This document shows, piece by piece, positions 5,004-44,432 of a stretch of 64,000 nt of DNA (the first letter of the stretch is position 1; every line of letters begins with the position of its first letter). The stretch spans positions 3,368,226-3,432,225 of the forward strand of contig NZ_CM001441.1 of the NCBI RefSeq assembly GCF_000244895.1, given 5' to 3'. The translations under genes were made by a program, and so were the position numbers. The DNA is from Desulfosporosinus youngiae DSM 17734. Its GTDB lineage: Bacteria > Bacillota > Desulfitobacteriia > Desulfitobacteriales > Desulfitobacteriaceae. The notes under the pieces were generated by a model. The model was not told the origin of the DNA, did not search any database, and saw nothing but the letters and a program-made list of their open reading frames with translations.

Positions 5004-5011
5004 TGGATATT

Positions 5012-5402
5012 ATTTGCTGGTGCTGCGTCAGCAGCATGGGCGGCTACTCTGAAAAATAAAAGACCCTAAAGACATGCAGAAAAATCCCCAAACCCGCAAG
5101 CAGGGCAGCTTCGGCCACAGAAGCGAACCCATTGCATGGAGAGGCGGTAAAAGCCCACAAGACGGTGCGGGGATACGGAGCCACGGGTTCACATCAGGTA
5201 TTACCCGGAGGTTTGGCGGAGTCCCGCACCGGCGAGTGGGCGAGCCTCGGAGTGCTGCGGTGAGCGGATGTGGACGAAGCTGCCCAACCCGGAAGCACTC
5301 ACATTTTCATCCTCTGATGTTGCTGCGGCAGCGGCATGGCAGGCTACTCTAAAAAAGACCCTCTTCTTCATCATCTGCCGGTGCTGTTTATAACGGCATG
5401 GA
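5012..5402 (+). repeat. structured intergenic repeat, copy A (non-coding RNA candidate)
   Basis: This gene-free stretch is homologous to 15118-15509. Shared blocks include ATGGAGAGG, AGGTATTACCC, GAGGTTTGGC, AGTGGGCGAGCCTCGGAGTG and TTTTCATCCTCTG. A long-range stem pairs 5103-5118 with 5270-5285 (15 of 16 pairs). Inside it, 5164-5172 pairs with 5222-5230. A small hairpin with tail GGCTACTCT occurs at 5021-5036 and 5321-5336, and a more degenerate one at 5382-5398. Open frames across it are short, unsupported by ribosome sites and not conserved between the copies, so I treat it as non-coding. It matches no RNA family I recognise. Confidence 0.7.
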
Positions 5403-13430: not shown

Positions 13431-13600
13431 GTGAACTACACACCACCTAAGAGGTGGGTGCTTCCTGCTCAACCTAGCTATTGCTAGGAGTATCAACAGG
13501 CTAACCCCGTAATCCCTACGGTTCTTTGAGTGCTAACTTATCCTGTCAAGGCAAGTAGTCTCAACCCTTCGTCTCTGATATTTTTAGAGGCATTATAGTC
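13431..13600 (-). ncRNA. candidate TnpB reRNA/omegaRNA region
   Basis: In this family a guide RNA covers the 3' end of tnpB and the right end of the element, with the guide copied from the flank. The segment from the tnpB 3' end to the CCACCT-CTT-AGGTGG hairpin at the right end fits that layout. The flank at about 13410-13430 would then supply the guide. This is placed by analogy with known TnpB systems, not by recognised sequence identity. Confidence 0.4.
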
Positions 13601-14662
13601 TCGATCAACCGTGCATCCACAGTTGGAACAAGTCCACTCTTTATCGGACAGTTCCAACTCCTTGTTTATCTCACCACAGTAATGACAGGCTTTGGAGGAA
13701 GGAAACCATTTATCAACTTTGACTAATAATTTTCCTTCATTCTCTAGCTTGTATTTTAGGAATGTCGTGAACATGCCCCAAGCATTGTCACCGACTGATT
13801 TTCCGAAATTCAAACATTGGCTCATGGCTTTCATATTTAAGTCTTCAATTACTATTGCATCATAGCTCTCCACTAATTCTCTTGACCTCTTATGGAGGAA
13901 ATCTTTTCTGCAATTGGCAACCTTTTCATGCACCTTGGCAACTTTGACCCTTTGCTTACGTCGGTTCTTGCTTCCCTTGGTACACTTGGCTAACTTGCGT
14001 TGCTCTCTTGCAAGTTTCTCTAATGCTTTACGGTAGAATCTTGGATACTCTGCCCTCTCACATTGGCTATCTGTATAAAGGTTTTTCATATCAAAGTCTA
14101 ACCCTAAAACATTTTCCCTTGTTGGAGAGATTGGTTGTACATCTTGAAAGAATTCAACCAAGATACTCACATAATAGTTGCCAGAGGGTGATTTAGATAT
14201 GGTACAAGACTTAATAATTTGATTGCCGGGTATTTCGCGGTGTTGTTTCAACTTAACAAAACCAAGCTTTGGAAGTTTGATTTGCTTATCTCTAAACCTA
14301 ATATTGTTGTTGACGTTATTGGTTGTGTAAGAATTCTTATCTCTATGTTTAGCTTTGAACTTTGGGAATCCAATACTTTTATCTCTAAAGAAGTTGTTGT
14401 AGGCAGTTTGCAAATTCATTTGCGCATTTGCCAAGGCTAGGGAATCAACTTCTTTTAGCCAGACAAATACAGCCTTATATTTAGCAGGAGTCGGTGACTT
14501 ATACTTCTTCAGTTCAGCTTCATTATCTTTGAATTGCTCGTATAGCTCAATTCGTTCCTCTAACATTTTGTTGTAGACGAACCTTACACAGCCAAATGTT
14601 TTGGCAAATAATAGTTCCTGTTCCTTAGTTGGATACAACCTAAAATTATAAGCCTTGTTCAC
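13538..14662 (-). CDS. tnpB: TnpB RNA-guided endonuclease (IS605 OrfB family)
   Basis: 374 residues, full length. An N-terminal helical/wedge region begins NKAYNFRLYPTKEQE. The RuvC catalytic residues are present: Asp in LGLDFDMKNL, Glu in IVIEDLNMKAM and Asp in DRDYNASKNI. A CxxC...CxxC zinc ribbon (CHYCGE...CSNCG) lies before the last one. TnpB nucleases cut DNA guided by an RNA made from the element's right end and help retain the element. No frameshift or missing catalytic residue, so it looks active; without tnpA it depends on a transposase supplied from elsewhere. Confidence 0.93.
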   Translation of the reverse strand: MNKAYNFRLYPTKEQELLFAKTFGCVRFVYNKMLEERIELYEQFKDNEAELKKYKSPTPAKYKAVFVWLKEVDSLALANAQMNLQTAYNNFFRDKSIGFPKFKAKHRDKNSYTTNNVNNNIRFRDKQIKLPKLGFVKLKQHREIPGNQIIKSCTISKSPSGNYYVSILVEFFQDVQPISPTRENVLGLDFDMKNLYTDSQCERAEYPRFYRKALEKLAREQRKLAKCTKGSKNRRKQRVKVAKVHEKVANCRKDFLHKRSRELVESYDAIVIEDLNMKAMSQCLNFGKSVGDNAWGMFTTFLKYKLENEGKLLVKVDKWFPSSKACHYCGEINKELELSDKEWTCSNCGCTVDRDYNASKNIRDEGLRLLALTG

Positions 14663-14998: not shown

Positions 14999-15062
14999 CA
15001 TGCTTGTCCCAAAATCTCAAAATCCCAAACGTTTGGGATTTTGAGATTTTGGGACAAGCATG
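14999..15062. repeat. perfect 64-bp palindrome (element Y, copy 1)
   Basis: Two 32-base arms meet at CCCAAAC|GTTTGGG with no loop and no mismatch. It is followed by GGCCGCTATAT, then AGCAAGTAAAAGGGTACCC. The same core and tail recur after the palindrome at 44377-44432. It immediately precedes structured repeat copy B. It is too perfect and too long for an ordinary terminator and has no gene reading into it on the plus strand. Confidence 0.9.
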
Positions 15063-15117: not shown

Positions 15118-15509
15118 TTCTACTCTGAAAAACACCCCAAAAACATTCAAAGAATCTGTAGACCTCAAAGGAAGGCAGCTTCTCCCACAGGAGTGAACTC
15201 ATCGCATGGAGAGGTTTTAACCACAAACCCTATACTTATCTTACAAGGTATTACCCAGAGGTTTGGCACGAAAGTGTCCGGTGGACACTTTCGCCGAAGC
15301 GGCAATCTCCAAAGAAGACTTATCCGCTGAAGGTAGCTCCCGCGCCGGTAAGTGGGCGAGCCTCGGAGTGCTGAGTGACGAAGACACTGTCTTCGCACGA
15401 ATTAGCTTTTCTTACAGGATGTGGGAGAAGCTGCCCGACCTGGACACAGCTCCTTTTCATCCTCTGCTGGTGTCGCATCAGCGGCATGGCAGGCTACTTT
15501 GAAAAATTA
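15118..15509 (+). repeat. structured intergenic repeat, copy B (non-coding RNA candidate)
   Basis: Homologue of 5012-5402, in a gene-free stretch. The long-range stem pairs 15174-15188 with 15421-15435 (15 of 15), with a base-pair exchange relative to copy A. The terminal hairpin is at 15471-15486, followed by GGCAGGCTACTTTGAAAAA. Copy B carries extra internal hairpins not found in A: an 11-bp stem CGAAAGTGTCC/GGACACTTTCG (about 15269-15293), and CGAAGACA/TGTCTTCG (about 15379-15395). The interior therefore grows or shrinks by hairpins while the frame is kept. Open frames across it look accidental. Confidence 0.7.
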
Positions 15510-44376: not shown

Positions 44377-44432
44377 CGGCCATGCTTATTCCAAAATCCC
44401 AAACGTTTGGGATTTTGGAATAAGCATGGCCG
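44377..44432. repeat. perfect 56-bp palindrome (element Y, copy 2)
   Basis: Two 28-base arms meet at CCCAAAC|GTTTGGG without mismatch. The tail GGCCGCTATAT, AGCAAGTGAAAGGGTGCCCC matches that after the palindrome at 14999-15062. The outer arms differ between copies (CTTATTCC here, CTTGTCCC there), yet both stay self-complementary. It lies 48 bases past the ggt stop, where it might also end that transcript. Confidence 0.9.

Follow-up and report, generated by a model that had tools for sequence, protein, structure and literature searches.

A folded, modular repeat of Desulfosporosinus with hairpin modules at fixed internal sites

The Rickettsia palindromic elements are small palindromes found inserted within other sequences that have a function or a fold. 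The BOX elements of Streptococcus have the composition boxA-(boxB)n-boxC and are described, in the available sections of PMC3049150, as modular, folded, intergenic and probably parasitic. Prokaryotic MITEs are short, non-coding, base-paired and non-autonomous (available sections of PMC10969869). The REPs measure 20–40 bp (available sections of PMC3733652).

The window, a stretch of 64,000 nucleotides from Desulfosporosinus youngiae DSM 17734, contains two copies of a folded repeat, copies A and B (Table 1). BOX elements are probably the nearest described kind, as judged from architecture. Like BOX, as presented in the sections of PMC3049150 at hand, the repeat is interspersed, intergenic, folded and probably parasitic, its ends are constant while the modules between them vary in number, and it is sometimes inserted in other repeats; among 145 copies, a variable count of discrete modules was found between constant parts. 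Unlike BOX, it has two or more module types, each with its own fixed sites, the modules can be inverted and can nest in themselves, and module 2 is common to other families, the comparison with these parts of the BOX description being one of architecture and not of sequence. With the MITEs, as far as the same sections of PMC10969869 describe them, it has in common that it is short, non-coding, base-paired and probably non-autonomous. Unlike them it is internally modular. The GTAG REPs, in the parts of PMC3733652 and PMC2817692 available, resemble it in having a high copy number, in lying between genes and, for many but not all copies of the repeat, in a GTAG-tagged end hairpin; in the repeat, however, the core is about 190 nt, and no REP-associated tyrosine transposase (RAYT) is shown flanked by it. 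Measured against these parts of the two papers, GTAG REPs have only the end motif and abundance in common with the repeat. The word stems 'desulf' and 'firmicutes' are absent from the available texts of both.

The palindromes of the Rickettsia elements, by their general description, differ from those described here, which occupy set positions within a repeat and can lie one inside another. Open-licence literature searches gave no title naming these repeats.

Anatomy and core fold

Table 1. Positions, within the window, of the repeat copies, their parts and their neighbours.
Feature	Position	Strand	Description
tnpB gene	13538..14662	-	neighbour, outside the element
64-bp perfect palindrome	14999..15062	.	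neighbour from another repeat family, outside the element
Copy B	15120..15506	+	5' end motif CTACTCTGAAAAA, 3' end motif GGCTACTTTGAAAAA; ends read by many-copy comparison
Outer stem P1, 5' arm	15174..15189	+	16 bp, 100% complementary to 15420-15435
Outer stem P1, 3' arm	15420..15435	+	pairs with 15174-15189
Module 1 of copy B	15268..15337	+	70 nt; opens with 11-bp hairpin 15269-15279/15283-15293 (100%)
Module 2 of copy B	15379..15416	+	opens with CGAAGACA/TGTCTTCG, 15379-15386/15388-15395 (100%)
Segment H of copy B (3' terminal hairpin)	15458..15506	+	reverse complement starts GTAG
Copy A	5044..5356	+	module-free; bounds approximate

The sequence-only reading held that copy B has the same frame of conserved blocks as copy A, with an 11-bp stem and a second stem added. 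Repeat comparison bears this out: the two copies have two common blocks, at 85% (D1) and 92% (D6) identity, copy A lacks the two inserts, and both extra stems are present in copy B with full complementarity. The arms of the second stem are only one base apart, and therefore a few of its inner pairs must open in a real strand. The outer stem is perfectly paired as described, but it is one base pair longer than the 15 bp given.

The borders of copy B, read from a comparison of many copies, are candidate transposition ends. Read by eye, the end motifs are similar and direct, not inverted (CTAC[CT]CTGAAAAA), and one end is missing in many copies. Segment H is common to copy B, copy A (family D1) and another repeat located upstream of several copies. 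One H segment (5004–5056) precedes copy A and another (5304–5356) closes it. A longer relative of the element, containing ACCCGGAGGTTCGGACGCG, carries module 2 and an H segment (L132, L182 on the minus strand, and L040) and often lies directly upstream of the element.

Copy B had also been placed beside a 64-bp palindrome and a tnpB gene. The positions are correct, but neither is regularly found with the element: an arm of the palindrome family adjoins three of 80 copies examined in the D. youngiae genome, copy B among them, and a tnpB-like gene adjoins only copy B. Both look like bystanders. The palindrome belongs to a separate repeat family, arms of which are also found beside the copies L005 and L085 of this genome. 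It has a common centre with a 56-bp palindrome at 44377–44432, and about 75 bases of the right flank are 79% identical between the two.

The stretch of copy B folds with a z score of −4.46, and none of 100 shuffles folds equally well. The score is −2.99 for its reverse strand and −2.75 for copy A. The core is a long imperfect hairpin with compensatory changes. The alignment contains 34 of 65 insert-free cores, 17 of 47 from D. youngiae and 17 of the 18 that other genomes supplied, where a single row was dropped for bad length; copies with long gaps were excluded from one analysis step. Across these 34 cores, the five helices are paired in 92.4% of cells, compared to 87.9 ± 0.3 after shuffling, and 68 cells are changed on both sides, compared to 19.4 ± 4.3; slid structures are paired at 31–44%. 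Covariation exceeds that of 500 out of 500 shuffles by five measures. RNAalifold gives a single long imperfect hairpin of 56 pairs, 16 of which are changed on both sides. The counts for P5 are low, as its arms are partly out of register in the MAFFT alignment. In copies from the genomes G032 and G034 the frame is the same although the letters of the stems differ. Copies without the outer stem would have spoken against the sequence-only reading. None is seen among the 34 aligned cores, where P1 is 97.4% paired, although these copies were selected for having both sides of the stem.

A drawn pseudoknot between GYGAACCC and GGGTTCAC is a poor fit, with a pair broken in 16 of the 34 sequences. Stronger covariation is seen when the same base is paired in a nested way (C-G 15, U-A 10, U-G 5). 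Counted over 112 cores, G-T and A-C cells stand at 76:27 in P1, 8:4 in P3, 16:9 in P4, 55:41 in P5 and 24:89 in the drawn pseudoknot. Neither strand is clearly favored as RNA by these cells.

Modules at fixed sites, within and outside the element

Module 1 takes the place of a tetranucleotide that is found in insert-free copies. In 145 copies, the gap between the landmarks around site 1 is 24–25 nt (83 copies), 88–92 nt (50), 154–156 nt (10), 221 nt (1) or 367 nt (1), the last (L037) being a tandem artefact. The gap at site 2 is 7–10 nt (81 copies), 43–48 nt (49), 78–82 nt (14) or 116 nt (1). The gap sizes are thus quantised, and the element lengthens in net steps of about 66 nt with module 1 and about 36 nt with module 2, with 0–3 module copies possible at the fixed internal sites. 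A third site has a long gap in seven of the 145 copies, one of which (L152, D. youngiae) is a run of N. The sequence-only reading had proposed a comparison of many copies to see which inner stems are optional; these gaps show that those of modules 1 and 2 both are. In the D. youngiae genome, 20 copies have both modules, seven the first only, six the second only and 47 neither (p = 3e-8), a value to be taken as a guide since the copies are related.

The 12 two-module copies seen for site 1 have the order X X' Y' Y, which places one module in the loop of another, and a copy of genome G026 (L041) reads X X' X'' Y'' Y' Y. Module 2 is found inverted within the loop of module 2 (L184, and a copy of G007). 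In the RNAalifold fold, none of the three insertion sites lies in a paired column; with 43% of the columns unpaired, this is weak evidence taken alone. Module 1 could form either of two stems that cross each other, and the GCTATCT stem is missing in the G032 types. Between genomes, module 1 has an identity of 0.920 compared to 0.784 for the surrounding core (48 copies, 756 pairs), and is the higher of the two in 98% of the pairs. Three copies in G032, from another genus (L203, L205 and L206), have an extra module of their own, a CGTGA...AAACCTTCCGGTGGAAGGTTT...TCACGCCCGAAGGT hairpin, in two different places.

All 29 strong matches of module 1 in the D. youngiae genome overlap a core copy of the family of copy B; weaker partial matches are located elsewhere in this genome. 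A module-1-like unit is found in another folded sequence of genome G017, and at L275 a hairpin resembling module 1 is located close to a RAYT gene. Exact copies of the module-2 palindrome number 44 in the D. youngiae genome, and there are 69 at up to two mismatches compared to three for a reversed control. The contexts of 30 exact copies are the family of copy B (family 1) in 17, family 3 in 11 (assigned by one or both sides), family 2, a longer relative, in one, and a joint of family 3 and family 1 in one. In the chimera L125, family 3 on the left and the family of copy B on the right are joined exactly at module 2. Family 3 is a second short repeat, AAAGAAAACTTGGCTGGC...TATACTTTCTG, which carries module 2 at varying internal positions (L119, L123, L135 and L145 in D. 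youngiae; L052 and L054–L057 in relatives).

The inserts are separate modules that come and go at their sites, and not simply the peripheral growth of one RNA. The idea of growth by self-complementary inserts therefore survives in part: a folded core tolerates inserts at fixed places, but mere peripheral growth of a single RNA does not describe what is seen. Unrelated insertions as inner segments would have counted against that idea, and this is half the case: the modules are discrete and nest, and further repeat families contain module 2 as well.

Dispersal and turnover in place

The D. youngiae genome was searched as a single contig of 5.66 Mb. With copy B as the query at least 77 matches were obtained at E ≤ 0.001 (40 of 148 candidates scored; several per copy possible), and with copy A at least 63 (40 of 115 candidates scored). 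By landmark motifs, there are at least 82 copies in this genome and 169 across a sample of 16 genomes; a recount found zero double-counted copies, and the copy numbers are lower bounds. In genome G006, draft contigs end inside or close to the repeats at L316, L317, L318, L322, L331 and L332, and drafts therefore undercount them.

The repeat was matched in 34 of 60 relatives, with D. youngiae itself counted among the 60: in 27 of the 29 Desulfosporosinus genomes, five of seven from other genera of the family, and two of 24 from outside the family, both weakly. The pattern of the junction between core and module 1 is found in 22 stretches among named genomes, 21 of them from Desulfosporosinus; the remaining one, L372 from a Rubellimicrobium MAG, matches by chance. 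Two exact patterns have 0 matches in viral contigs, plasmids and phages give no blastn match at E ≤ 1e-5, and searching named genomes with recX as the anchor gave no result.

Copy B is located in the gap between recA and a helicase gene, and is absent from the orthologous site in all 19 congeners with recA in view. Most simply, this suggests that copy B was recently inserted there. In this gap genome G003 has a copy of its own, in the opposite orientation and with other modules, and G009 apparently has a different repeat; the remaining 17 congeners have no landmark match. Copies in D. youngiae are dispersed over both strands, and the strands of the neighboring genes show no bias (39 vs 40 on each side; 79 copies, simple ORF calls), which speaks against a cis-regulatory element.

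Orthologous copies were paired by their flanks on both sides. The cores of L034 in genome G011 and its counterpart in G007 are 0.934 identical, with 0.877 and 0.869 for the best sampled paralogs. In the two copies module 1 is present or absent, module 2 is single or nested, and site 3 is empty or filled. Between L297 of G007 and L196 of G006 (cores 0.952, paralogs 0.874 and 0.895), the difference is one module 2. L325 of G006 and L190 of G007 differ at sites 1 and 2, a pair for which a paralog is equally close (0.921 vs 0.886 and 0.925). Orthologous copies with cores 93–95% identical are thus unlike in their modules, which indicates that modules turn over in place. At two further sites, the core identity is 0.645–0.843 while the flanks are at 92–95%, and core replacement or re-insertion therefore seems to occur as well. 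The candidate empty sites from which a target duplication could be read may be deletions, both in G006, where the site is seemingly clean, and in G007, where an apparent 5' remnant is kept at the L181 site.

Mode of spread and other explanations

Copy B probably belongs to a mobile repeat, non-coding and non-autonomous, whose copies have multiplied in Desulfosporosinus and in genera related to it, and the best reading of the repeat is as a BOX/MITE-like element of unusual modularity. No host function is required to account for it. The unit would move as DNA, with an enzyme from a gene elsewhere acting on it in trans; no transposase was linked to the repeat. The fold would be the substrate of that enzyme, or of processes that replicate or repair a folded strand, and the foldback structure would be retained because mobility requires it. 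Modules most likely pass between copies and families by short-tract recombination or by template switching at hairpins, which would yield sharp borders, nesting and an occasional chimera.

Insertion of modules guided by structure is a less likely route. In such a hairpin-in-hairpin mobile system, small folded modules would be inserted, by a process that recognises structure, into loops, both those of larger folded repeats and those of other such modules. Orientation and family would not matter, and the nested strands would grow in fixed steps. We regard this as a tentative possibility, and an unlikely one.

The conservation of the fold across genera, and of module 1 above that of the core, could also mean an RNA function. 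Under this explanation, a family of functional structured RNA genes, multi-copy by chance, would have a protein partner or a regulatory role, and the modules would be peripheral RNA domains. The detailed covarying fold with its conserved loop sequences, the frame held in G032 and G034 despite other stem letters, and the strong conservation of module 1 all agree with it. However, the copies have neither strand nor position bias, they vary between species at the recA-helicase site, and their G-T and A-C cells are without a clear strand preference. In addition, Rfam has 0 matches at the gathering score in the window, and permissive scans gave sub-threshold matches only. An RNA gene family is in our judgement rather improbable.

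We give still less credence to a REP-type element moved by a RAYT. In many copies, though not in every one, the reverse complement of the end segment opens with GTAG and a hairpin comes next. One RAYT-like gene is present in the D. youngiae genome (NF047646, with 65.1 bits against a cut-off of 80), and RAYT matches occur in 27 of the 34 genomes that have the repeat compared to six of the 26 that lack it. Within the genus, however, the association is marginal (22, 5, 0, 2; p = 0.05), and the single-contig genome G003 has many copies of the repeat and no RAYT match. Six end-segment matches in 30 RAYT loci read as chance, and none of these loci was shown to be flanked by (inverted) copies of the repeat. 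A Y1/RAYT partner for the repeat was not supported on testing.

An OMEGA-type guide RNA, linked to TnpB or of the IscB/IsrB HEARO kind, might be suggested by a long folded repeat that adjoins a tnpB gene, and HEARO RNAs can be multi-copy, but this is highly improbable and largely refuted: PF14239 has no match in the D. youngiae genome and matches in just five of 60 relatives, the HEARO covariance model has no match at E ≤ 1 in the D. youngiae genome, and a tnpB-like gene is located at one of 80 copies.

Copy B is a real, little-understood mobile repeat, not a one-off RNA, and single loci of this kind should not be called new RNA genes. Hairpin insertion is a proposed growth route for large RNAs, and the orthologous copies of this repeat are a natural record of a folded RNA or DNA growing by hairpin insertion at fixed points. 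If the insertion is guided by structure, it would indicate an undescribed process of transposition or repair.
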